A stretch of 64,000 bases of DNA from Parvularcula mediterranea (GTDB taxonomy: Bacteria > Pseudomonadota > Alphaproteobacteria > Caulobacterales > Parvularculaceae): the NCBI RefSeq assembly GCF_013085255.1, contig NZ_JABFCX010000003.1:310001-374000 (forward strand). The letters run 5' to 3'. Of this stretch, positions 28,995 to 51,732 are shown one piece after another (within the stretch, counting starts at the first letter, position 1; each line of letters opens with the position of its first letter). The position numbers and the translations under genes were made by a program. Below the pieces are notes generated by a model, which did not search any database, was not told where the DNA came from, and saw nothing but the letters and a program-made list of their open reading frames with translations.

Positions 28995-30128
28995 ATGGCG
29001 ACGTCAAAGTTTGAGAAAGCTCGGGATCGCTTCCTCGCCTGGTGCGCTGAGGACGCCATCCCCCTGTTCCGCGACAAGGGCCGTGACCCCCTTGGCGGCT
29101 ACTACGAGGCCCTCTCCCATGACGGCGAGCCTCTCCGCGATGGGCACAAGAGGCTGCGCGTCCAGGCCCGGCAAGCCTGGTCATTTGCACGCGCCGAGCA
29201 TCTTGGCCTCATGACCGGCGGACGCGAGGCTTCGGACCACGCCTGGCGCTTCATGATCGATGAGGGACTGAAGCCTCTCAAAGACGGACCGACCTGCTTC
29301 ATTCACATCTTCAACGCCGATGGCTCCGTGAAGAGCGACCTGCGGGACAGCTACGACCACGCCTTCGTCCTTCTGGCGTCGGCTGAGCGCAGGTTGCGCT
29401 ACAATGATCCGGAAGCGGATGACATTGACGCCATCGTCGAGCGGTACTTCGAAACCGTTCGCCACCCTGAGGGAGGGTTCGCAGAAGGCATCCCCGCGTC
29501 GCTACCTCGGCGAACGAACCCGCACATGCACCTCTTCGAGGCAGCGCTTCTTAGGCGCGAAGCTGGCCCTTGGGCGTTTTCTGACAGTGCCGTCGAGGAG
29601 ATCAAGGCTCTGTGGGATCGCGCCTTTTGGGATCGCCAGCGCAAAGCCCTCCTTGAGTTCTTTGGTGAAGATTGGACCCCGGATGCGGCCAGCGGTTCGG
29701 TCATTGAGCCCGGCCACATGGTGGAATGGCTATGGCTGCTCCATAAAGCGGGGCATGCTGACCAAAGCCTATTCGAGACCCTCTTCGAGTCAGCGCGCGA
29801 TTATGGGCTCCTCCCCGATTTTCCGATTCTTGCTGATACGGTCGACATTCGCTCCGGCATTCGTTCCGAGGGCGCAAGGCTCTGGGGCCAGACCGAGCAT
29901 ATCAGAGCCGCGCTTGTTCTCGCTCGAGCGACAGGGGAGGAACGCTTCTGCGAGCTCGCAGCCCAGCTGCTTGAGGCGTTCGACCGCCACTATCTGACCG
30001 GCATGGTGCGTGGTGGCTGGTATGACCGGCTCGGCCTCGACGGCAATCCTATCTCCGACAGGATGCCCTCGAGCCTTCTCTATCACATCCTCACATTGGC
30101 GGATGAGCTGGTCCATTCGGCTCAATAA
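28995..30128 (+). CDS. AGE-family epimerase/isomerase
   Basis: A 377-residue (alpha/alpha)6-barrel enzyme of the N-acylglucosamine 2-epimerase superfamily. Family blocks are KRLRVQARQAWSFARAEHLG, DSYDHAFVLLASA, NPHMHLFEAALLR, VIEPGHMVEWLWLLHKAG and RLWGQTEHIRAALVLA, carrying the histidines and arginines of the active site. Members interconvert GlcNAc/ManNAc, mannose/fructose or related sugars; the sequence alone does not decide which. Its place between a glycosyltransferase and UDP-glucose dehydrogenase suggests supply of a capsule sugar precursor. It begins 12 bases after the preceding gene. Confidence 0.8.
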   Translation: MATSKFEKARDRFLAWCAEDAIPLFRDKGRDPLGGYYEALSHDGEPLRDGHKRLRVQARQAWSFARAEHLGLMTGGREASDHAWRFMIDEGLKPLKDGPTCFIHIFNADGSVKSDLRDSYDHAFVLLASAERRLRYNDPEADDIDAIVERYFETVRHPEGGFAEGIPASLPRRTNPHMHLFEAALLRREAGPWAFSDSAVEEIKALWDRAFWDRQRKALLEFFGEDWTPDAASGSVIEPGHMVEWLWLLHKAGHADQSLFETLFESARDYGLLPDFPILADTVDIRSGIRSEGARLWGQTEHIRAALVLARATGEERFCELAAQLLEAFDRHYLTGMVRGGWYDRLGLDGNPISDRMPSSLLYHILTLADELVHSAQ

Positions 30129-36614: not shown

Positions 36615-37493
36615 CTAGGGAGTACCCGAAAACCCGTAGAGGCTTCCCCGGCTTTTCGCGAGCGCGTCGAGGTCCTTCAGCTCACTGAGGAAGCGTTCAA
36701 GATGATGGAGGCGGATCATGTTCGGTCCGTCCGAGGGGGCGTTGTCGGGGTCGGGATGCGTCTCTGCGAAGACGCCTGCCACGCCGACGGCGACGGCCGC
36801 CCGTGCAAGGGTTGGGACCATCTCGCGCTGGCCGCCTGAGCTTCCGCCCTGCCCGCCTGGTTGCTGGGCTGAGTGGGTCGCATCGAAGATCACGGGCGCG
36901 CCCGTCTCCTCGGCCATCGTCTTGAGGCCGCGATAGTCCGTGACCAGCGTATTGTAGCCAAAGCTTGCGCCGCGCTCGGTGACGAGGACGTTCGGGTTGC
37001 CCGAGCCCGTCACTTTCCTGACCACGTTCTTCATGTCCCAGGGGGCGAGGAACTGGCCCTTCTTGATCTTGATGACCCGGCCTGTCTCAGCGGCGGCGAT
37101 CAGAAGGTCTGTCTGGCGGCAGAGGAACGCCGGGATCTGGAGCACATCGACCACTTCGCCGACCCGGGCGCATTGCTCGCGCTCGTGGATGTCGGTGAGG
37201 GTCGGGACCCCGAGGCTCTCTTTGATTTCGGCAAACACCGGAAGTGCATCGTCGAGGCCCATGCCGCGCTGGGCGCCGAGGCTCGTCCGGTTGGCTTTGT
37301 CGAAGCTCGTTTTATAAACAAAACCAATGCCGAGGCGGTCCGTGATCTCCTTGATCGCGCTCGCCACTTCCAAGGCATGGTCGCGGCTCTCCATCTGGCA
37401 GGGGCCTGCGAACAGCATGAAAGGCTTGTCGTTGCCGATCGTTACATCGCCTGCGGGAGCGGAGATGGTGACGGTGCTGTTGATCTGGTTCAT
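36615..37493 (-). CDS. kdsA: 3-deoxy-8-phosphooctulonate (Kdo-8-P) synthase
   Basis: KdsA condenses phosphoenolpyruvate with arabinose-5-phosphate, the first committed step to Kdo. The 292-residue TIM barrel shows MLFAGPCQMESRDHALE, VYKTSFDKANRTS, the PTLTDIHEREQC block, QIPAFLCRQTDLL, IIKKGQFLAPWDM-type sequence, and the metal-region FDATHSAQQPGGQGGSSGGQ. I start it at the ATG at 37493, preceded by GAGG, because the longer frame has no family-like sequence. It is GC-rich, unlike its AT-rich neighbours on both sides. It may serve lipopolysaccharide as well as the capsule's Kdo linker. Confidence 0.95.
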   Translation of the reverse strand: MNQINSTVTISAPAGDVTIGNDKPFMLFAGPCQMESRDHALEVASAIKEITDRLGIGFVYKTSFDKANRTSLGAQRGMGLDDALPVFAEIKESLGVPTLTDIHEREQCARVGEVVDVLQIPAFLCRQTDLLIAAAETGRVIKIKKGQFLAPWDMKNVVRKVTGSGNPNVLVTERGASFGYNTLVTDYRGLKTMAEETGAPVIFDATHSAQQPGGQGGSSGGQREMVPTLARAAVAVGVAGVFAETHPDPDNAPSDGPNMIRLHHLERFLSELKDLDALAKSRGSLYGFSGTP

Positions 37494-37625
37494 CGGCCTC
37501 GGGGTAATCCAACCCGCCCTTTCACGCAACGTCCGAGGTGGGCCTCTAGTCCATGCCACCCTTGCCATCATTCCCGAGTTGGCCCATTGCCTGAGAGGAG
37601 TTGATGGCAACGAGAGAATGACTCG

Positions 37626-38936
37626 ATGAAGGTAGTTGCATTCGTGCCCGCGAAAGGTTCCAGCGAACGTATCCCATCAAAAAACCTAAGGGTTTTGGAC
37701 GGTGAGCATCTCTTCAAACGAAAGTTGCGACAGCTTCTGGAATGCGAGACGATCGACGAAATCTATCTGGATACGGAGTCTGATGAGATCATTGCTCTGG
37801 CAAAAGATCTCGACGTAAAGGTCATCAGGCGGGATCCCAGCCTGTCAACTAACGCCACGGACGGCCACGAGATGTTTGCGAACGAGTGCCGGCAAGTCCC
37901 CGACGCTGACATTTACGTGCAATGCCTCTGTACAGCGCCTTTTGTCGATGCCGATACGATCGATCGCGCGATACAAGCTCTGCTGAATTCTGACTGTGAT
38001 AGCCTCGTCGCGGTCTCCAGAACAAAGCAGTATCAGTGGGCAGACGGTGAGCCTCTTTACGGACACGGGCGCATCCCCAACAGCGTCGATCTGCCCGACT
38101 CAGTTGTGGAAGCCATGAGCCTCTACGCGGTGAAGCGAACCGGTGACGGAAGCCCCTCTAAACGGTTTGGGCGCAATCCTCTCCTCTTTGAGCTAGATGC
38201 CCGTGAGATGTTGGACATCAATTATCCGAAAGACCTTGCCTTGGCAGAGCACATTTGCCTCGGCGCGCGTGAAGAGGAACTCCGAAAGTTCCGTCTCATG
38301 AAGACACATCTCAGTTCGGCGGTGCTATCTGACATCACGAAGGATCTCGGGCTCGACTGCACGCTCGTTCCCGAAATCCGCGCCATGACCGGGACAAGGA
38401 TCCTCGGCCGGGCAAAAACCCTGCATCTCGGCGCGCTGGATGAGAAACAGAATTCTGAGCGGGAGGAATGGAAGGGTATCTACAAGGCTCTCAACTCCTA
38501 CAAATTTATACGTCCAGGAGACGTTATAGTCGTTGCTACCGATGTTCCTCAGCGCGCCTACTTCGGCGAACTAAACGCCCATCTGGCCCTACGGGCGGGT
38601 GCTGTGGGTGTTCTCGTCGATGGCTTCACACGTGATATCGAAGGCGTTCGCCCTCTCGAACTCCCTGTGTTTGCCCGAGGTTCCTATTGCAACGACATCA
38701 AATATGAAGGCACCCTCCTCGGAATGAACGAAAAGATCAGTGTGGGCGGCGTCTCAGCAAGCAATGACGATGTCGTATTTGCGGACGCCGACGGAGCTGT
38801 AATCGTGCCGGGGAATCAGTGGGATAAAGTTCTGGATATCGCCGTGAAGGCAATCATGAACGAAGCTCAAATCAGTCTCGGCGTTTCCCTTGGGCAGCCC
38901 GTAGAAGACTTGATCGACACTCACGGGTACTTCTAA
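37626..38936 (+). CDS. Fusion of NeuA-like CMP-sugar synthetase and RraA/HMG-aldolase-like domain
   Basis: A 436-residue two-domain protein. Residues 1 to about 222 are a nucleotide-sugar cytidylyltransferase: FVPAKGSSERIPSKNLRVLD (7-26) is the CTP-binding start, CTAPFVDADTIDRAI lies mid-domain, and DINYPKDLALAE (197-208) is the NeuA metal/substrate block. Residues about 225-436 form an RraA-like domain: HLALRAGAVGVLVDGFTRD (319-337) with the catalytic-type Arg336-Asp337 pair, LPVFARG, and DDVVFADADGAVIVPG (381-396). RraA-fold aldolases cleave or form 4-substituted 2-oxo-4-hydroxy acids using pyruvate. I infer synthesis and CMP activation of an acidic 2-keto-3-deoxy sugar. KdsB function is unlikely since the N-terminus is NeuA-type. 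Confidence 0.82.
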   Translation: MKVVAFVPAKGSSERIPSKNLRVLDGEHLFKRKLRQLLECETIDEIYLDTESDEIIALAKDLDVKVIRRDPSLSTNATDGHEMFANECRQVPDADIYVQCLCTAPFVDADTIDRAIQALLNSDCDSLVAVSRTKQYQWADGEPLYGHGRIPNSVDLPDSVVEAMSLYAVKRTGDGSPSKRFGRNPLLFELDAREMLDINYPKDLALAEHICLGAREEELRKFRLMKTHLSSAVLSDITKDLGLDCTLVPEIRAMTGTRILGRAKTLHLGALDEKQNSEREEWKGIYKALNSYKFIRPGDVIVVATDVPQRAYFGELNAHLALRAGAVGVLVDGFTRDIEGVRPLELPVFARGSYCNDIKYEGTLLGMNEKISVGGVSASNDDVVFADADGAVIVPGNQWDKVLDIAVKAIMNEAQISLGVSLGQPVEDLIDTHGYF

Positions 38937-39017: not shown

Positions 39018-40127
39018 ATGACGGCGCGAAGCTACGTTTACCTGCGCTACTACCACTGGATTTCAGTCGTCCTCGCCATTCGAGATAAGAGGACGGCGGA
39101 TGGCGAGGACTGTCGGATCGTCTGTCGGGCCTCGGTGGCAAAGGTATTATCGGCGTGGGGTCTGGAGCACGGAACCGACTTTGTTTTGCTGACGGAGCTT
39201 CGCGCAGAAGCCGATGAGAGCAAATCCGTAGAGCTCATCACTCATCATCACGCCGATAGCGTAACGGAACTCGAGGAAACGCTCGAAGTCCACGGCTTCG
39301 AGAAGATTTCAGTTTCATTCTTCGCAGATGGCTTCACGAACTTTCTGGTCCACAAAGAGGCGATTGCTGACTTTCTCAAACGCCAGCATTCGTTGCGACC
39401 CGGCTCGATTATCTTTTTCGACCGGGTGAACGAAAAGGCTCTCGACCACCTTCCAGATTTTGACATTGAGGTCCTCTCCGCATCGCATCTGCAAGCATTG
39501 ATGCAGCATGATGTCGCTTCTTCATCTGCTAAGCGAGCGCTTGAAATGATCACGCCCTCTGTTGGCGAAAATGGAGCGCTTCTGCTGGTCATGCGGCCCT
39601 GGGGGAGTAGTACTTTTCACAGCGGGAAGTTCCTTTTGGATGATCCTGTGGAGACTGCATCTCGCATGATGCAAAAGCTCGTCGACGCCATCAACCGGCA
39701 TGAAGGCGTCGCGCGGACAGTTATTCTGCGCCCTGATAATCGAGCTCCGGAGTTTATGGCGCGCGTCGTTGAACACCTCAGAGATCGACTGAAGCAAGAG
39801 AGCATAGTCTTTCCCGAAGAAGTCTGGCCAGAATGGATGACGTTGGAACCGCTGCTTCTGTCTCTTCCTGATGATGCTCTCGGACCACCATTTATCGTGG
39901 CATCGCTCGACTCCACGGCATCCTTACCCTTCCTTGAGGTCCGCAAGGGTCGCACGCACTATTTAGGCCTACCGGACAGCGCGCTCGCGGCAAGCGGGGA
40001 CGAGGAGTTCGCTAAAGGGACCGCTGCACGCGTGCGAAACCTCGAGCGGCACGTGCGATACATTCGGAGAGATACGCCAGACACAGTCGAGCTTCTCGAT
40101 CCCTCATTTGTAAAAGTATCCAACTAG
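39018..40127 (+). CDS. Unassigned transferase-like protein A (convergent paralogue pair)
   Basis: A 369-residue cytoplasmic protein of a family I do not recognise. Landmarks are FFADGFTNFL (101-110), MRPWGSSTF (192-200), ILRPDNRAPE (236-245), WPEWMTLEP (270-278) and ASLDSTASLPFLEV (295-308). The order of an acidic-x-G motif, an Arg-Pro-Asp motif and a late Ser/Thr-rich motif loosely recalls bacterial sialyl/polysialyltransferases (D/E-D/E-G, H-P, S-S/T). The next gene on the opposite strand encodes a paralogue with the last three motifs at the same residue numbers. It lies 81 bases after the CMP-sugar synthetase fusion, so a CMP-sugar-dependent transferase is my inference. Confidence 0.6.
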   Translation: MTARSYVYLRYYHWISVVLAIRDKRTADGEDCRIVCRASVAKVLSAWGLEHGTDFVLLTELRAEADESKSVELITHHHADSVTELEETLEVHGFEKISVSFFADGFTNFLVHKEAIADFLKRQHSLRPGSIIFFDRVNEKALDHLPDFDIEVLSASHLQALMQHDVASSSAKRALEMITPSVGENGALLLVMRPWGSSTFHSGKFLLDDPVETASRMMQKLVDAINRHEGVARTVILRPDNRAPEFMARVVEHLRDRLKQESIVFPEEVWPEWMTLEPLLLSLPDDALGPPFIVASLDSTASLPFLEVRKGRTHYLGLPDSALAASGDEEFAKGTAARVRNLERHVRYIRRDTPDTVELLDPSFVKVSN

Positions 40128-41236
40128 GCATTTATTCGTCTACGGAACGCCACGAAATGAGGCTCTCGTTCATAGCGCACCCATAGAGAAGCAGCGCCAG
40201 TCGCTCGAGCGTTCAGCATGAAAAGCTTCTCGAGAATTGCTCGATTTGGAAGCATCTTGCCATCTTCGTCCTTAATTGATGGGACCCCGAAAACGTGGCC
40301 AGCGCCGCGACCCTGAAACAGAAACGGAAGTGAGAACGTCGAGTCCATCCCGAGGACGTGAACCCTTCGATCACCGATCTCCTCCAGGAGCACCTTGAAA
40401 ATTGGCTCAAAGGTCATCCACCAAGGCGCTTGATCGATTACATCGACGCGCATTCGATCACTGATCTGAGCTTGAACATCGCTCGCTATCTCCAAAGAGG
40501 AGGCAAGCCCGCGGTCGTCCGGACGAATGAGTAGCCGACACGGGCCAATGTTCTCAGTGTACTTATAAATTAGATCGACGAGCGCGGCGGCGACGGGAAA
40601 CTTAGCTCCCAAAGAGCGCAGCTTCCCATCAAGAAAGGCTTCGTCCTCCCAAGGACGGAGTATAAGGACAATGACGGAAACACCGTCTTCAAGATCAAGG
40701 CCATCGACCAACTTTTGTGCTTCGAGGTTCGCTAGTGTCAGTTCTTGCCCCTGCTGATAGTCAGCATGACGAATTATGCGTATTCGCGGAGTGATCGGAC
40801 AGAAACCGGATGTCGACTCGATACGATCAAAAGCGATATCCGACCCAAGCTGAAAACTAGACTTTTCAGCTCCAGCGAGAACAGTTTCGGTATCCTCACA
40901 ATTGTTCGTCATTCCGTCTGGATAAAACCATAGGAACTGCTCGGCCTCGACGTCTCCAAGGGCCTCACGACACACATCAAAGTCTCGCATACCCGACAGG
41001 CTATGCTGAACGAGGAGGTGGAACTCTGAGCAGCGCTCAGTACAAAGAACATTCGAGAGCTCAAGGACATGGATGATTTCGGTTTCGTCCAAGGCCTTAG
41101 TGGCCCTCAGCTTTCGCACGAACGCGGGTGGGCCGACGAACAGGACTTTGTCAAAATCTTCGCGTAGCGCTTCTCGCATGAGGAGGCCAAGCTGAAGCCA
41201 TTGCTTATAGCGAACAAAAATCGCGGCGAGCTTCAT
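40124..41236 (-). CDS. Unassigned transferase-like protein B (convergent paralogue pair)
   Basis: A 370-residue paralogue of the convergent neighbour. It keeps FLWFYPDGMTNN (101-112), LILRPWEDEAF (191-201), LLIRPDDRG (235-243), PWWMTFEP (271-278) and LGMDSTFSLPFLFQ (295-308). The motif order and numbering are almost unchanged between the two, although most of the rest has diverged. Its N-terminus (AAIFVRYKQWLQLGLLMREA) resembles a Rossmann-type first strand and helix. The ATG at 41236 shares one base with the stop of the upstream Stf0-type gene (TGATG). Its stop shares CTAG with that of paralogue A. Function is inferred only. Confidence 0.6.
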   Translation of the reverse strand: MKLAAIFVRYKQWLQLGLLMREALREDFDKVLFVGPPAFVRKLRATKALDETEIIHVLELSNVLCTERCSEFHLLVQHSLSGMRDFDVCREALGDVEAEQFLWFYPDGMTNNCEDTETVLAGAEKSSFQLGSDIAFDRIESTSGFCPITPRIRIIRHADYQQGQELTLANLEAQKLVDGLDLEDGVSVIVLILRPWEDEAFLDGKLRSLGAKFPVAAALVDLIYKYTENIGPCRLLIRPDDRGLASSLEIASDVQAQISDRMRVDVIDQAPWWMTFEPIFKVLLEEIGDRRVHVLGMDSTFSLPFLFQGRGAGHVFGVPSIKDEDGKMLPNRAILEKLFMLNARATGAASLWVRYEREPHFVAFRRRINA

Positions 41237-45076: not shown

Positions 45077-45212
45077 GGAGAGGTTGTCAACTTTGGTCTC
45101 GGTTCGTAGCTCTAGAAGCCGTGAGTCTCGCAGCTATGTTACCTCTCTTTCTTTTTCGATAGAAAGCCAACTTTGACGCCGCATGGGCCACAACCCGCTC
45201 CAGCCTGCTCTA

Positions 45213-45228
45213 AGGCAGCCTGCTGCCT
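45213..45228. promoter_or_regulatory. Perfect inverted repeat in the kpsM leader
   Basis: AGGCAGC-CT-GCTGCCT is a seven-base perfect palindrome with a two-base centre, about 50 bases before kpsM and inside the 200-base divergent region. No T-run follows, so it is not an intrinsic terminator. A regulator-binding site or a leader hairpin is possible. I found no JUMPstart/ops-like GGCGGTAG element nearby. Confidence 0.3.
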
Positions 45229-45277
45229 CAAGATGCCGGTCACGCAATTCCGGCAAATAAGCCGTGAGAAAAAAGCG

Positions 45278-46054
45278 ATGTTCGGCAACTCATTTTCTAT
45301 CTCGTCGCGCGTGGTAAACGCCCTCATCCTTCGCGAGCTCAATTCGCGCTATGGAAATTCTCGGCTCGGCTATCTTTGGGCCATCGCGAACCCGATCATC
45401 TCCATAATGGTTCTCTTTTTTCTATTTTCGACGATCCGGTCGCGTGAGACCGGTGACATTCCGATCCTGATGTTTTTGGTGACCGGTTGGTTCAGCTACG
45501 GTTACTATCAGACGATGGTTAGCTCGATTGCGAATGGCGAGGCAGCAAATCGATCTTTGATGATGCATCAGCCAGTGACACGGCTCGACGTCATGGCAAG
45601 TAGGGCTGTAGTAGAGACGCTGACGACAGTATCATTCTTTGTTGTCGGTGTTGCGATAGCAGCAATTATAGAAGATGCTACACTTCCCAACGATCCAATA
45701 TTGGTTCTCGCAAGTTTCGCCGCTGCTGGTACCTTTGGCCTGTCGCTCGGCTTAGCAATGGGCGCGATCCTGACCTACTTCCCGTTCGCCATGAACTTTC
45801 TGCAACCCGTAAACAGAATAGGGTTTTTCGTATCGGGAGTCCTTTTCACCGCGACAATGCTACCCTCATGGCTTTACCCGTATATTCGATGGAACCCTAT
45901 GCTCCACCCAATCGAGGGGATCCGGCAAGGTTGGTTTGAGGTCTACACGTCGCCTGTCCTTGATTTGACATATACATTTTCAATCGCCCTGCCCCTCCTC
46001 GCCGTCGGACTTTATCTCGAACGCCGCACCCGTCGCGGGATAAAATTCTCATGA
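45278..46054 (+). CDS. kpsM: Capsule ABC transporter permease, KpsM-type
   Basis: The membrane subunit of the ABC exporter that moves the lipid-linked capsule chain across the inner membrane. The 258-residue protein has about six hydrophobic segments (for example NPIISIMVLFFLFS, FLVTGWFSYGYY, LLAVGLYL) and the ABC-2 motif RELNSRYGNSRLGYLWAIANP near its start. GVLFTATMLPSWLYPYIRWN and NPMLHPIEGIRQGWF are typical of polysaccharide ABC permeases. The ATG at 45278 follows GTGAGAAAAAAGCG; a longer in-frame extension is unsupported. The stop overlaps kpsT by four bases (ATGA). Confidence 0.92.
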   Translation: MFGNSFSISSRVVNALILRELNSRYGNSRLGYLWAIANPIISIMVLFFLFSTIRSRETGDIPILMFLVTGWFSYGYYQTMVSSIANGEAANRSLMMHQPVTRLDVMASRAVVETLTTVSFFVVGVAIAAIIEDATLPNDPILVLASFAAAGTFGLSLGLAMGAILTYFPFAMNFLQPVNRIGFFVSGVLFTATMLPSWLYPYIRWNPMLHPIEGIRQGWFEVYTSPVLDLTYTFSIALPLLAVGLYLERRTRRGIKFS

Positions 46055-46749
46055 CGAATGCCAAATTCCTCAGCGTCAAGAATGTATCGAAGTCCTACAA
46101 AACGAAAGTGGGCTGGAACCAAGTGCTGCGAAACGTCTCCTTCAGTCTTTCGCCGAGGGACAGGTTGGGCATTCTGGGCCGAAATGGCGCCGGGAAATCC
46201 ACGCTATTACGGATCGTCGGAGGAGCAGAGCTACCTGACACAGGCCTGATCGAAAAAGACATGAGCGTGTCTTGGCCAGTCGGGTTCAGCGGTCATTTGC
46301 AGCCCGCGATGTCGGGTCGAGCGAACGTGAAATTTTGCGCTCGCGTCTACAACCGTGAGGTGGATGAGGTAGTCGATTTCGTTTCACGCTTCTCCGAGCT
46401 AGGCTCATATCTTGAGGAGCCGGTTCGAACATACTCGTCAGGCATGAAAGCCCGCCTCGGCTTCTCTCTCTCAATGGCGATCGACTTTGACTGCCTCCTC
46501 ATTGATGAGGTGACGGCTGTCGGAGATGCGGTTTTCAGGAAGAAGTGCGAGGCTGCGCTTCTGGAAGTGGCGGAGACCCGGTCCTTTATCATGGTCAATC
46601 ACGGGCTTCAGGCGATCGACCGTCTCTGCAACCGCGTCATCGTTCTTGGCGTGGAGGATGAGCCGGTTCTTTCGACTCGGGTCCATAAGACGATTAAAGC
46701 GTACGAAAAGGCGCTCCTCGGCGGTGAGTGGCAGCGCGTTGAAGAATGA
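46051..46749 (+). CDS. kpsT: Capsule ABC transporter ATP-binding protein, KpsT-type
   Basis: The ATPase of the capsule exporter, 232 residues. Walker A is GRNGAGKST (43-51), the ABC signature is YSSGMKARLGFSL, and Walker B is DCLLIDEVTAVGD. The MSVSWPVGFSGHLQPAMSGR Q-loop region matches short KpsT-type proteins, which lack the carbohydrate-binding tail of O-antigen Wzt. This favours export of capsule rather than O-antigen. ATGA overlaps connect it to kpsM upstream and kpsE downstream. Confidence 0.95.
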   Translation: MTNAKFLSVKNVSKSYKTKVGWNQVLRNVSFSLSPRDRLGILGRNGAGKSTLLRIVGGAELPDTGLIEKDMSVSWPVGFSGHLQPAMSGRANVKFCARVYNREVDEVVDFVSRFSELGSYLEEPVRTYSSGMKARLGFSLSMAIDFDCLLIDEVTAVGDAVFRKKCEAALLEVAETRSFIMVNHGLQAIDRLCNRVIVLGVEDEPVLSTRVHKTIKAYEKALLGGEWQRVEE

Positions 46750-47945
46750 ATGAGAGCCAACCCATGCACGGCAACATAGACAGCACCAGCGATCAGGTGA
46801 CGCACCAGAGGCTGCCAGGCCTGCAGCGGCCGAGCATGACCCGCGCGGAAGCTCTGGCGTTCGTGAAGAAGCGTCCCTTCGCGAGCTTCTTTGGAACCTG
46901 CTTCGTGCTGTTCGGGCTGTACTTCGGGTTGATCCACCCGCCGGTCTATGTGGCGGAGACCCAGTTCTCGATCCGCGGGAAAGACTCAGGCCCGGCTTCG
47001 TCGTCGCTTCTATCGACCTTCATCCCCAATTCCGGGACCGGTGGAATCTCGGAGAGCGTCGCAGTTCGCGAGTACATCCAGTCTCCGCAGATGTTGGAGA
47101 ACCTGAACCAGGAGAACGACCTCAGGTCGCTCTATGCGAGGTTTCGCATCGATCCTCTCAACCGTTTGCCCCGTTCCGCATCGAGCGAGGATTTCCTCAC
47201 CTTCTACCGCAACAGGATCGATGTCTTTCTCGACCGCGAAGCAAGCATTCTGCGCGTTCGGGTCCAGTCCTACACGGCGCAATCCGCCTACGATATGGCC
47301 GGCGATATTGTTCGGTTCAGCGAGAATTACGTCAACGACCTCTCCGAGCGTGTGCGTGAGGCGACGCTTGATGACGCTCGCACCCAGGTCGAAATCGCCC
47401 AGGGCGACGTCACCGACATCCGCCTGGCGATGGCTTCGTTCCGGAACACGTCCGGTGAGCTGGATCCCGCAGCGACGGGTGCTGCCGAGGTCTCTGCCCT
47501 CATCGCCCTCGACGCGGACATCACGCTCCTCAAGTCACAGCTCGCCTCGCAGCTGGCGATTAACCGCGCAGATGCACCGCAGGTCCGCTCGATTGAAGCG
47601 CAGATCTCGAGCCTCGAGCGCCAGGCTGCCGAGCGACGAGCATCGCTCGCATCAAGCTCTGAGGACGATACGCTGGCCGCCCTCCTCCGCGAATATGAGG
47701 GGCTGGTCATCGACCGCGAATATGCAGAAACTCGCCTGACTGCCGCCATGGCGTCACTGGACAGTGCACGTCAGCTGGCGAATCAGAGAGAGCGTTTCGT
47801 TGTGCCTATCGTTGCCCCGACCATGCCGACCGTCGCGACCGAGCCAAGAAGGTTCGCCCGCTTCTGCCTGGCCATGATCCTGTCGATCCTCGCCTACGGT
47901 GTCGTCAATTATACGATCGCCGGGATCAACGACCATGACCGCTAG
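46746..47945 (+). CDS. kpsE: Capsule export inner-membrane/periplasmic protein, KpsE-type
   Basis: KpsE is the polysaccharide co-polymerase-type adaptor linking the ABC exporter to the KpsD outer-membrane channel. The 399-residue protein has an N-terminal membrane segment (FFGTCFVLFGLYFGLIHPPV), a long periplasmic part with helices and coiled-coil regions (about 190-340), and a C-terminal membrane segment (FCLAMILSILAYGVVNYTIAG). The VYVAETQFSIRGKDSG block after the first helix is typical of the family. It overlaps kpsT by four bases and kpsD by eleven, so the export genes are one operon. Confidence 0.9.
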   Translation: MNESQPMHGNIDSTSDQVTHQRLPGLQRPSMTRAEALAFVKKRPFASFFGTCFVLFGLYFGLIHPPVYVAETQFSIRGKDSGPASSSLLSTFIPNSGTGGISESVAVREYIQSPQMLENLNQENDLRSLYARFRIDPLNRLPRSASSEDFLTFYRNRIDVFLDREASILRVRVQSYTAQSAYDMAGDIVRFSENYVNDLSERVREATLDDARTQVEIAQGDVTDIRLAMASFRNTSGELDPAATGAAEVSALIALDADITLLKSQLASQLAINRADAPQVRSIEAQISSLERQAAERRASLASSSEDDTLAALLREYEGLVIDREYAETRLTAAMASLDSARQLANQRERFVVPIVAPTMPTVATEPRRFARFCLAMILSILAYGVVNYTIAGINDHDR

Positions 47946-49656
47946 GCTTCTCGGCCTTCTCTTTGCGCTGTCTGTCGCGCTGGGCTCCGCCTTTGCGCAG
48001 ACCAATCCGCTGGGCGGCCTGTCGGCGTCCCAGCGTCAGGCTCTGGAGCAACGTACCCAGCAGGCGACGCAGCAGGGTGTCTTGATCCAGCAGGGTGTCG
48101 CCTCGCAACAGGGCGAAGCGGCGGCTGAGGAACGGGCATTCGATCTGCTTTCGGAGTTTTCCGAAGACGCGAACTTGCCGATGTTTGGCTCACAGCTCTT
48201 CAACCGTCCGCCCGCAGCCTCACGCTCGGCGGCAGACTCCAGCTACCAGCTAATGACCGGCGACCGGATCGCGGTCAGAGCGTTCGGTGCGTACAACGCG
48301 GATATTGTCAGCGATATCGACGCCAATGGCTTTCTCTTTATTCCCGAGGTCGGTCCCGTAAATCTTGCAGGCCGCCGCGTGGCGGGGCTGCAGTCTACTA
48401 TCGAACAGGCCGTTCGTCGGACGTTCACAGACAATGTTCGGGTCTACGCCACGCTCCTTACGCCTGGGACCGTCTCCATCTACGTGTCCGGCGATGTCCC
48501 GCGGCCCGGCCGCTACATCGGCGGATCGAACGACGACGTTCTTTATTTCCTCGGTCTCGCAGGCGGTCCGCACCAGGAGCGCGGCAGCTATCGCGACATT
48601 CGCGTGATGCGGAATGGTGAGCTGGTCGCGCGTACCGATCTCTACGCGTTCCTACTCTCCGGCCAGGAGCCGGACATCGACCTCCGCTCAGGCGACGTGA
48701 TCTTCGTCACCCAGCGCGGTCCTGTGGTCTCGGCCTCTGGCGACGTCAGCGCGCCCTTCGCCTATGAGATGCTCGGCACCCGTACGGGCGGTGCGCTGAT
48801 CGATCTGGTCAGGCCCGACGTGTCGGTGACCAACGTGACCCTGACCGGCACCCGCGATCGTGAGCCGTTCAAGCGCTACTTCACCCTCGACCAGTTCAGG
48901 TCCTTCCCACTTCAGACGGCGGATAATGTCCGGTTCAGCTCGAATGCCTTCGGTGACGATATTGCCGTCGCAGTCCAGACGACCTCGCCGGACGTCGAGG
49001 CGGTCTACATACTGCCCCGCAAGGCCAAGCTGTCCGAGCTCCTCTCGCTTATGAGCCTCGACACGAACCTCGTTGATCCGAACTCGATTCACGTGAACCG
49101 CCTGTCCGTTGCCGAACAGCAGAAGGCAGCTCTTGAAAGTTCTCTCGCGCGGCTCGAGCGCAGCGCCTACCTTGCGACGTCGATCAGCAACGAAGCCGCA
49201 GCTCTCAACCGCGCACAGGCGAGCGCCATCTCTGCCTTCGTCAGCCGCGCCCGGCGTGCCGAGCCTGCAGGCACCATCACGGTGATGGAGAACGGTCAGC
49301 TCAACGACCTTGCGCTTGAGGATGGCGATGTTGTCGTCATCCCGGACAAGACCGACGTGATCCTAGTCGCTGGCGAAGTCATGTCTCCCGGCGCATTCGT
49401 CGCTGGTCGTCGCGAGCGTGTGGGTGACTATGTCGAGCGCGCAGGCGGCTTCCAGTCTCAAGCCAACAAGCGCGAGTTCGTCCTCATCAAGCGATCGGGT
49501 GCTGCCCTCCGCGTTGGCTCAAGGCACATCCCGGAGGCTGGTGACCAGATCCTCGTGCTGCCGAAGACGGGCGGTAATGCCTTCGTCCTCGCGAAGGACA
49601 TCACACAGATCATCTTCCAACTCGCCCTGTCGACCGCGACGGTCGCGCGCCTCTAG
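47935..49656 (+). CDS. kpsD: Polysaccharide export outer-membrane protein, KpsD/Wza-type
   Basis: The outer-membrane secretin-like channel for capsule. The 573-residue protein has a cleavable signal peptide (LLGLLFALSVALGSAFAQ). A Poly_export domain (about 100-200) shows YQLMTGDRIAVRAFGAYNAD and the NGFLFIPEVGPVNLAGR block, followed by SLBB domains such as VSIYVSGDVPRPGRYIGGSN and ILVAGEVMSPGAFVAGRRER. No lipobox cysteine is seen, unlike Wza. The ATG at 47935 lies inside the kpsE end and begins the signal peptide, so it is chosen over the longer frame. Confidence 0.92.
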   Translation: MTARLLGLLFALSVALGSAFAQTNPLGGLSASQRQALEQRTQQATQQGVLIQQGVASQQGEAAAEERAFDLLSEFSEDANLPMFGSQLFNRPPAASRSAADSSYQLMTGDRIAVRAFGAYNADIVSDIDANGFLFIPEVGPVNLAGRRVAGLQSTIEQAVRRTFTDNVRVYATLLTPGTVSIYVSGDVPRPGRYIGGSNDDVLYFLGLAGGPHQERGSYRDIRVMRNGELVARTDLYAFLLSGQEPDIDLRSGDVIFVTQRGPVVSASGDVSAPFAYEMLGTRTGGALIDLVRPDVSVTNVTLTGTRDREPFKRYFTLDQFRSFPLQTADNVRFSSNAFGDDIAVAVQTTSPDVEAVYILPRKAKLSELLSLMSLDTNLVDPNSIHVNRLSVAEQQKAALESSLARLERSAYLATSISNEAAALNRAQASAISAFVSRARRAEPAGTITVMENGQLNDLALEDGDVVVIPDKTDVILVAGEVMSPGAFVAGRRERVGDYVERAGGFQSQANKREFVLIKRSGAALRVGSRHIPEAGDQILVLPKTGGNAFVLAKDITQIIFQLALSTATVARL

Positions 49657-49662
49657 CGGCGG

Positions 49663-51732
49663 GTGGCTGATCGCGGGAGAGATGCCTCTGCCCCGTGGCG
49701 GGTCAGGCTTTGCGGCATGCTCGGAAAGCCAGCAGACGGAGCGCTGCGCATCGGGATCGTCGCCCCAGGGGTCTGGCGACGGCGGAAGCGGCTTGCCGAG
49801 CTCATGGGCCCGGACGTCGCGTTCAGTTTCGGCATGGTCGGCGGCTGCGACGCCATCGCTGGCTGGGGCCTTAAGGGTGATGGCCGTCAGAGGGCGGAAG
49901 ATCTTGGCAAGCCCTATCTCGCCCTCGAAGACGCTTTTATCGCCAAGGTTGGCGGCGATGAGAAACGCTTTGGCCTTCTGGGCCTCGCGGTCGACCCGGT
50001 CGGGATCTATTACGACGCTTCGCAACCATCCTTCGTTGAGGAGCTGATCGCGGCGAGCGCAGACCACCCCGCTACGACGAACCTCGTGCCGCTCATCCGC
50101 GAGTTGGGTATTTCAAAGTTCAACCCGTTAGGCTCCGAAGCCATGGAGGGCGTGCCGGACGGGCTCGATTACGACGCCATCGTCGTCGACCAGATCGCAG
50201 GCGACCTTTCCATCGCGGGTGGCCTCGCGAAGGCTGAAGATTTCGAGCGCATGCTGACCGCTGCCATCGACGTCCACGGCGCCTCGCGCGTCGCGGTCAA
50301 GCTCCACCCCTATGACGGCGTAGGCGGACGAACAGGCCATCTCGGCGAGCTGGCCAAGCGCCACGGTCTCACCACCCTGCCCCATCGCGGAAACTGGATG
50401 ACGTATGCGGAGCGTGCGAGCCGCGTCTACGTGGTCTCGTCGAACGCAGGGCTAGAAGCGCTGATCGCCGGAGCGGACGTCAGCTGCTTCGGCACCCCCT
50501 TCTTCGGAGGCTGGGGCCTGACCGAAGATGTGCAGCCCGTCAGCAGAAGAACGGCGAGGCCGACACTCTCCCAACTCTGCCAGGCCGTCTACGGAGAGTA
50601 TGGACGCTATTGGTCGCCATCCCTTGAGAGACAGGCGACCGTCGCGGAGCTGGGGCACTTCATCGAAGCGCAACGAAAGCAGGCCAGCGTCTTCCGGAGC
50701 GGCCTATCCCTCCACGGCGTGCAGAAGCTGAAGCGCAGCCACATCGCGCCGTTCGTGGAGCCTGCCGGAGATCTCAGCATCGTGCCTAAGATCGCGCCCA
50801 GCGATGCACCCTCGGCGCGCGAAGGGGTTTGGGCATCACGGGCGATCAAGGATGAAGCGGCAGACCGTCAGTGGGCAGAGCGCGAGCGGTTGTTTGTGGA
50901 GGACGGGTTCCTGCGCTCGGCGGGTCTCGGCGCTGATTTGATCCGCCCCGCGTCCCTCGTCTTTGACGAGCAGGGGATCTACTTCGACCCGTCGCGACTC
51001 AGCGACCTCGAAACCATGCTGCGCGAGCGTGACTTGACGGAGCGTGAGAAGCGGCGCGGGGCCAACATCCTCCGCCTCCTGAAGGATACCCGCGTCAGCA
51101 AGTACAATGTCGGCGGCTCCCTCCCCGGTATCGAGCGGGACGGCCGCCCAGTCATTCTCGTTCCTGGCCAGGTGGAGAATGACGCCTCGATCCTGCGAGG
51201 CGCAGGCGAGGTCCGAACCAACAGGGGCCTTCTTCTCTCCGCGCGTGAAGCGCAACCGGACGCCCTGATCCTCTACAAACCGCACCCGGATGTAGAACAG
51301 GCCGGCAGGCCGGGTCATGTTCCCGATGCTGAAGAGATCGCCGACCACGTTCTGAGCGACGTGCACCCCGCGGACGCCATCGACGCCTGCGATGAGCTTC
51401 ACACCATGACGTCGCTCATGGGGTTCGAGGCACTGATCCGCGGCAAGGCTGTACGTACTTACGGCGCCCCCTTTTATGCCGGGTGGGGCCTCACCGAAGA
51501 CGATGCCGAGATGCCGCGGCGCGGATGCCAACGCTCAATCGAAGAGCTCGTCTATCTCAGCCTCGTTGCCTATCCGCACTATGTCAGCCCCAAGACCTTT
51601 GTGCCTTGCGGCCCGGAAGACGTCATCGAACTACTCGCCGGATCAGGGCCCGCGAAGCCTTCCGTCCCCGGAGCACGCGCTGCGCTCCGCCTCTGGCGAA
51701 AGCTCAGGACTGCACCGGACTATCTCAGATAA
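49663..51732 (+). CDS. kpsC: Capsular polysaccharide biosynthesis protein, KpsC-type (dual Kdo transferase)
   Basis: KpsC contains two tandem glycosyltransferase modules and, with KpsS, builds the beta-Kdo linker on the phospholipid anchor. The 689-residue protein shows the internal duplication: IGIVAPGVWRRRKRLAEL and later a second half. Paired motifs include CFGTPFFGGWGLTEDVQP (first) and TYGAPFYAGWGLTEDDAE (second), and VKLHPYDG (first) with LYKPHPDVE (second). The likely start is GTG at 49663, with an in-frame ATG at 49717 as the alternative. It follows kpsD by six bases and meets rfbA convergently. Confidence 0.93.
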   Translation: MADRGRDASAPWRVRLCGMLGKPADGALRIGIVAPGVWRRRKRLAELMGPDVAFSFGMVGGCDAIAGWGLKGDGRQRAEDLGKPYLALEDAFIAKVGGDEKRFGLLGLAVDPVGIYYDASQPSFVEELIAASADHPATTNLVPLIRELGISKFNPLGSEAMEGVPDGLDYDAIVVDQIAGDLSIAGGLAKAEDFERMLTAAIDVHGASRVAVKLHPYDGVGGRTGHLGELAKRHGLTTLPHRGNWMTYAERASRVYVVSSNAGLEALIAGADVSCFGTPFFGGWGLTEDVQPVSRRTARPTLSQLCQAVYGEYGRYWSPSLERQATVAELGHFIEAQRKQASVFRSGLSLHGVQKLKRSHIAPFVEPAGDLSIVPKIAPSDAPSAREGVWASRAIKDEAADRQWAERERLFVEDGFLRSAGLGADLIRPASLVFDEQGIYFDPSRLSDLETMLRERDLTEREKRRGANILRLLKDTRVSKYNVGGSLPGIERDGRPVILVPGQVENDASILRGAGEVRTNRGLLLSAREAQPDALILYKPHPDVEQAGRPGHVPDAEEIADHVLSDVHPADAIDACDELHTMTSLMGFEALIRGKAVRTYGAPFYAGWGLTEDDAEMPRRGCQRSIEELVYLSLVAYPHYVSPKTFVPCGPEDVIELLAGSGPAKPSVPGARAALRLWRKLRTAPDYLR

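Follow-up and report, generated by a model that had tools for sequence, protein, structure and literature searches.

We wanted to understand what a single protein of Parvularcula mediterranea might do that joins a CMP-sugar synthetase to a domain of the RraA type. The gene lies at 37626–38936 on the forward strand of the 64,000-nucleotide stretch of DNA that we analyzed (hereafter the window), and its translation is a single open frame of 436 residues, from an ATG to a stop codon, with PAKGSSERIPSKN at residues 8–20 and DINYPKDLALAE at residues 197–208; the chain length, motifs, and residue numbers given in a preliminary description of this DNA were all correct. A domain search bore out the fusion of a NeuA-type cytidylyltransferase with an RraA domain that had been proposed there, both matches exceeding the Pfam cut-offs for membership: CTP_transf_3 (PF02348) at residues 5–127 (37638–38006, forward strand; E 3.6e-19, 69.9 bits against a cut-off of 22.6) and RraA-like (PF03737) at residues 232–393 (38319–38804, forward strand; E 1.3e-24, 87.6 bits against a cut-off of 24.5). 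Since the D197-x-N199 motif lies past the first match, the cytidylyltransferase domain appears to reach approximately residue 210–220; Arg336 and Asp337 fall inside the RraA-like match and Glu413 beyond its end. The AlphaFold2 model (mean pLDDT 93.5, pTM 0.86, and no residue below 50) recovered both folds, with Foldseek retrieving the RraA-fold structures 3k4i, 5x15, and 3noj as well as the CMP-sialate/CMP-Kdn synthetases 9t4z, 6ifd, and 1eyr, and ranking CMP-Kdo synthetases lower. Further, both Pfam families were matched in all 49 fusions that we aligned, which excludes a chance or misjoined frame. On the translation, Pfam, AlphaFold2, and Foldseek together, we annotate the product as a putative CMP-ulosonate synthetase/RraA-like fusion.

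A pattern scan of one genome from each of 84,980 species returned 123 relatives, which is a lower bound because the scan depends on matching peptide patterns, and the best 80 were retained for analysis. Among these, 78 are open, stop-terminated, full-length fusions of 428–449 amino acids, and one (L072) leaves its contig at 435 amino acids. In the metagenome-assembled locus L108 (10001–10441), the frame is broken after 147 residues where its relatives are intact, reflecting either a pseudogene or a sequencing error. At least six phyla are represented among the best 80 of the 123 relatives, which include Pseudomonadota, Acidobacteriota, Bacteroidota, Bacillota, Thermodesulfobacteriota, Planctomycetota, and Bdellovibrionota; a number of the carriers are metagenome-assembled genomes, and their taxon labels may be wrong. 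Closer to home, a search of 149 genomes drawn from the genus, family, and order of P. mediterranea, its own genome counted among them, gave matches in 88, and the sole full-length one was the window's own, so that the gene looks acquired. Two further genomes carry the fusion among 385 of the class, one over residues 1–436 (L023) and one with a frame that stops at 394 (L024). The phage and viral collections searched contained no relative, and the plasmid search gave 51 records with matches, none spanning 80% of the query; the 30 matches listed are each to a single domain. In a tree of 79 of the best 80 loci, row P0001, and two outgroup rows (L108 was omitted for its broken frame), the window fusion and five rows belonging to Acetobacteraceae, Roseomonadaceae, and Rhizobiaceae form a group (support 96/92); the outgroup rows have very long branches and place nothing. 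The highest identity to the window fusion among the best 80 of the 123 relatives is 64% (L040). The GC content of the window between 32 and 46 kb is 0.51–0.58, compared with approximately 0.60–0.64 in the flanks, which fits the expectation for an exchanged capsule region. As the preliminary description had supposed, the open-licence PubMed Central literature yielded no characterised fusion; no paper in it holds both "cytidylyltransferase" and "RraA", and a subscription paper could exist. In the accessible part of PMC11641403, rraA appears solely as a locus boundary.

We then looked at the residues that each half retains. The alignment used (A3) holds 48 of the best 80 loci and P0001, i.e. 49 rows, and its fusions are 43–64% identical to that of the window. 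In the cytidylyltransferase half, P8, K10, S13, R15, K19, N20, Q99, and D197 are invariant in 49/49 rows, and this invariance stands with the Pfam and fold matches behind the assignment of the domain, which is NeuA-type by fold and by sequence. The PA(K/R)G...KN and D-x-(D/N) motifs are common to NeuA and the fusion, NeuA having Arg where the fusion has Lys10. The window fusion falls under every NCBIfam KdsB cut-off, scoring at best 48.9 against 193 bits, and the KdsB of the window's genome scores 245.5 against the same 193-bit cut-off.

In the RraA half, Arg336, Asp337, and Glu413 are likewise invariant in 49/49 rows; the first two are the pair that the preliminary description had picked out, and the third, which aligns with a metal ligand, had not been named there. 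Alignment to the HMG/CHA aldolase 3noj places them on Arg123, Asp124, and Glu199, of which, in the accessible text of PMC5065237, Arg123 is the enolate-stabilising arginine and Asp124 and Glu199 are acidic metal ligands. The fusion thus has the arginine and the Asp/Glu metal ligands of a catalytic RraA-fold pyruvate lyase, and the domain assignment draws on the Pfam match, this alignment, and the residue invariance. The set also occurs in all 10 other RraA proteins of the unfused loci scanned and in an unfused relative at locus L034, which indicates a site of catalytic type and says nothing of the substrate. The general-acid positions proposed for HMG/CHA aldolase, Gly144 and Thr145, align with an invariant Asp357 and with Ile, Val, or Leu at position 358, and all 49 rows have Lys or Arg at position 359. 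We considered Asp357 together with the basic residue at 359 as a mark specific to the fusion and rejected it, since three other RraA proteins (L029, L030, and L031) have both.

By its gene content, the surroundings of the window fusion are those of a capsule locus. Divergent from the fusion lies kdsA (36615–37493, reverse strand), encoding a 3-deoxy-8-phosphooctulonate synthase above the curated cut-offs of NCBIfam NF003543 and TIGR01362. Its longest open frame extends to a TTG at 37610; the more probable start is the ATG at 37493, because identity with a second kdsA copy in the same genome also stops at 37493, and this start leaves a gap of 132 bases to the fusion. That second copy is split across both ends of contig C3 of the window's genome (L134 2481–2771 and L135 1–127; identity to the window kdsA 99.0% across 291 bases and 100% across 127) and is divergent from a KpsF-type isomerase gene; the contig appears circular at the split gene, with the middle of the repeat missing. 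The idea that kdsA is single-copy in this genome was accordingly dropped.

The gene at 39018–40127 (forward strand) encodes a 369-residue putative CMP-sugar glycosyltransferase of GT-B type that matches no Pfam or NCBIfam family. A homologue adjoins the closest fusion, L040, and none besides was found at E ≤ 1e-10 in the 385 genomes of the class. Its model is weak (pLDDT 64.7, from a three-sequence alignment) and has the polysialyltransferase 5wcn as its best PDB fold match (E 2.8e-5, TM 0.48), with UDP-GlcNAc 2-epimerases scoring almost equally. The capsule Kdo transferase KrkA likewise resembles 5wcn, according to the accessible part of PMC12887879; the predicted resemblance fits a CMP-ulosonate donor and is no proof of one. 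A paralogue with 23–25% identity and no Pfam family lies at 40124–41236 on the reverse strand, where the longest frame runs to 41521 and the start aligned with relatives is at 41236. Capsule export and linker genes follow at 45173–51732 (forward strand), identified by Pfam and NCBIfam as KpsM-like, ABC ATPase, KpsE-like, export protein, and KpsC-like Capsule_synth; the last exceeds its Pfam cut-off, and the others are best NCBIfam matches, all below curated cut-offs. We also note a gene of the N-acylglucosamine 2-epimerase family (PF07221) near the capsule locus, at 28995–30128 of the window, which reaches no named equivalog cut-off.

The neighbourhoods of the relatives were compared in the best 80 of the 123 loci. 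A KpsF/KdsD-type arabinose-5-phosphate isomerase gene lies within 3 kb of the fusion in 37/80, KdsA in 29/80, both in 27/80, and either in 39/80, and such neighbours within 3 kb always share the strand of the fusion. In sixteen of these loci the DNA on one side is shorter than 3 kb; in the 64 with at least 3 kb on both, the isomerase is found in 34, KdsA in 25, both in 25, either in 34, and neither in 30. With kdsA adjacent in the window as well, the fusion thus stands beside Kdo-pathway genes as a KdsB-type enzyme would. The tree rows adjacent to KdsA belong to Alphaproteobacteria, Gammaproteobacteria, Bacteroidota, Bacillota, and Thermodesulfobacteriota. In Mucilaginibacter (L110), the genes run isomerase, KdsA, fusion, HAD phosphatase, with the partners above the cut-offs of TIGR00393, TIGR01362, and TIGR01670, respectively, and, judged by these matches, the locus is a Kdo pathway with the fusion in the place of KdsB. 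The KdsA partners in the four loci tested (L054, L110, L112, and L113) exceed the Kdo-8-phosphate synthase cut-offs. Most sphingomonad loci have the order gene of approximately 390 codons, isomerase, fusion, and often KdsA; the ~390-residue product has no Pfam or NCBIfam family, and its gene occurs in 30 of the best 80 loci. In L052, L053, L054, L062, L068, and L078, KdsA is followed, on the other strand, by a gene of 270–319 codons (cluster c28); that of L054 belongs to the inositol monophosphatase family (Pfam PF00459), below all named cut-offs, and could encode the Kdo-8-phosphate phosphatase in the absence of KdsC. Thirteen of the best 80 loci, of Rhodospirillaceae type (e.g. L097 10914–12877), carry a MobA-like nucleotidyltransferase gene and another gene after the fusion, the latter with a sub-threshold match to CDP-glycerol transferases.

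One locus shows a split form. In L034 (genome G528), an unfused RraA gene directly follows a gene for a CMP-transferase joined to a HAD domain, alongside a DAHP-synthase-family gene and a gene for a ribulose-phosphate epimerase with CBS domains, and the RraA product keeps the Arg, Asp, and Glu as well as Asp357 and Lys359. This layout implies, from one locus, that RraA proteins of the fusion type also occur unfused beside ulosonate activation, with a synthase of PEP-dependent type and a phosphatase domain. A cassette of ribulose-phosphate epimerase-CBS, DAHP-synthase-family, CMP-transferase, and HAD phosphatase is present in L034 (8677–12515) and in L116 (5543–8538), and its gene content could possibly lead to a seven-carbon ulosonate activated with CMP, the epimerase being in the KpsF architecture. 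L004, also considered as a CMP-transferase with a HAD domain, was dropped because Pfam gives no HAD match.

Genome content was tested for 33 of the best 80 loci, mostly isolate records, 32 genomes being searched with that of L115 left out. KdsA exceeded its curated cut-off in 32/32 fusion genomes. KdsA is common in Gram-negative genomes, so this count weighs little outside the sphingomonads and Agathobacter. In 10/32 genomes (those of L047, L049, L052, L053, L054, L056, L065, L071, L078, and L113; nine sphingomonads and one Agathobacter), no CTP_transf_3 match other than the fusion scores above 29.4 bits. Each of these ten has one KdsA and no NeuB, both the isomerase and KdsA lie beside the fusion in 10/10, and they yielded no CMP-ulosonate synthetase of another known type for the KdsA product. 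The remaining 22/32 have at least one further CTP_transf_3 match of at least 63 bits, and a separate full-length cytidylyltransferase match of at least 137 bits is present in 12/12 Gram-negative carriers outside the sphingomonads and in the window's genome, where three curated cut-offs or models make it KdsB. The earlier proposal that the fusion bypasses KdsB holds in a limited sense, for the ten genomes. KdsB above its cut-off is also present in G552 and G543, adjoins a second isomerase in Sphingomonas G538, and in Novosphingobium G550 is accompanied by an isomerase of its own and by the single KdsA, the fusion being with another isomerase. Such co-occurrence would allow for a product distinct from plain CMP-Kdo, but duplicate CMP-Kdo synthetases are also known, as E. 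coli KpsU shows.

Computation gives directly the fusion, its conservation, its invariant site residues, and its gene context; from these we infer Kdo or a close derivative as the substrate, the transfer of CMP to it, and catalytic activity of the RraA half. We consider it rather probable that the protein acts in the Kdo pathway as a non-orthologous CMP-ulosonate synthetase to which a pyruvate-lyase domain of RraA type has been added, and that it serves a surface glycan. On this view, Kdo or a variant of it is probably activated for surface coats by a hitherto undescribed route. The presence of KdsA in 32/32 genomes, and of the isomerase and KdsA beside the fusion in the ten where it is the sole CTP_transf_3 match above 29.4 bits, suggests that KdsA probably makes the sugar and that the fusion stands where KdsB would. 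In the order suggested by the gene context, the isomerase would act first, KdsA would use PEP to form Kdo-8-phosphate, a phosphatase would release Kdo, the NeuA-fold half would place CMP from CTP onto it, and a nearby glycosyltransferase would consume the CMP donor, in the window for the capsule. Because the RraA half keeps the metal-binding and pyruvate-enolate residues of HMG/CHA aldolase, it probably acts on the same 2-keto-3-deoxy acid as the CTP half, at the C3–C4 bond and before activation; this chemistry would possibly be a modification of the sugar, not its source. Several observations speak against this reading: the second metal position of the D-x-D motif (199) is Asn in 48/49 aligned fusions, the fusion is nearer in fold to NeuA/CMP-Kdn synthetases than to KdsB, neither the isomerase nor KdsA lies within 3 kb in 41 of the best 80 of the 123 loci, and the Rhodospirillaceae branch has other neighbours, much of it with PepN on one side (that of L097 exceeds the TIGR02414 cut-off).

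The RraA half might instead be a non-catalytic scaffold or regulator, and the protein a second CMP-Kdo synthetase for the capsule, comparable to E. coli KpsU. The CMP-transferase of L034, with its HAD phosphatase domain, is another that carries an extra domain, and E. coli RraA acts by binding to the RNA degradosome, as described in the accessible text of PMC5065237. However, the metal-site Arg, Asp, and Glu are invariant over 49 fusions as little as 43% and at most 64% identical to the window's, which is more than a scaffold needs, and the fusion misses the equivalog cut-off for the RNase E regulator RraA (NF006875; 32.4 against 136 bits), making this explanation somewhat unlikely in our view.

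A sugar-acid epimerase is a further, unlikely, form for the RraA half: metal-dependent retro-aldol cleavage of bound Kdo between C3 and C4, turning of the aldehyde, and rejoining would yield a C4-epimeric octulosonic acid, trapped by the fused half as its CMP donor. The separate cytidylyltransferase in 12/12 Gram-negative carriers outside the sphingomonads and in the window's genome, and the arrangement in G550, would fit such an activity.

The preliminary description had the RraA half condense pyruvate with an aldose to a 2-keto-3-deoxy acid for the other half to activate, with no PEP-dependent synthase. The conserved metal-site residues suit this route, as do the pyruvate aldolases that the accessible text of PMC5065237 places within the RraA family, but the PEP-dependent KdsA found in all 32 genomes, within 3 kb in 29 of the best 80 of the 123 loci, and divergently adjacent in the window speaks against it, as does the unfused RraA relative of L034 beside a DAHP-synthase-family gene, also of PEP-dependent type; we regard it as quite improbable. 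That the fusion activates a nonulosonic acid of the sialic, legionaminic, or pseudaminic type made by NeuB would agree with its NeuA-type fold and sequence and with a weak match to the PseF model (55.7 bits, under the equivalog cut-off of 205.7). NeuB was found in 10/33 genomes and had no match in 23/33, including the window's (0 matches to a NeuB-type synthase) and each of the ten whose sole CTP_transf_3 match above 29.4 bits is the fusion, which makes this highly improbable. That the RraA half supplies a missing Kdo-8-phosphate phosphatase step is barely credible: KdsC has no match in the window's genome, and KdsC-type HAD genes occur in the fetched DNA of 4 of the best 80 of the 123 loci, but a Caulobacter control also lacks a KdsC match, the HAD phosphatase beside the L110 fusion exceeds TIGR01670 (KdsC subfamily) though not the stricter NF007019, similar HAD genes lie 1.5–6.2 kb from the fusion in L113 and L116, and RraA and a HAD domain are in adjoining genes in L034.

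Overall, the fusion represents a widespread unnamed family that unites sugar activation and a C–C bond enzyme fold in one chain and seems to take the place of KdsB in Agathobacter (Bacillota) and some of the sphingomonads. In annotation, such proteins should be taken neither for plain sialate synthetases nor for RNase regulators. With a catalytic RraA half, the product of the family may be a Kdo variant; with a C4-epimerase, both the monosaccharide donor and this use of the RraA fold would be new.

Among known systems, FlDet, as described in the accessible part of PMC8563752, is an RraA-family dehydratase/decarboxylase with 2-keto-3-deoxy-hexarate as substrate; by this description it resembles the fusion in its RraA membership and its link to a 2-keto-3-deoxy sugar acid and differs in being catabolic and acting on a diacid, and that part describes no fusion. 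HMG/CHA aldolase (3noj) shares the fold and the aligned Arg, Asp, and Glu with the fusion, which differs at the Gly144/Thr145 positions and scores 55.5 against the 304.5-bit cut-off of TIGR02798. The L034 CMP-transferase, like the fusion, is joined to a domain of the same pathway, with HAD in place of RraA and the RraA relative encoded by a separate adjoining gene. NeuA and the CMP-sialate/CMP-Kdn synthetases are nearest in fold to the N-terminal half (TM 0.83 for 9t4z, compared with 0.66 by target for the CMP-Kdo synthetase 1h7e), and the fusion departs from NeuA in its Asn199, its RraA domain, and the lack of a NeuB partner in the window's genome. KdsB and KpsU belong to a different subfamily of the cytidylyltransferase fold and lack the RraA domain of the fusion, which shares with them a site beside the arabinose-5-phosphate isomerase and KdsA and, presumably, the transfer of CMP to a 2-keto-3-deoxy octulosonate.
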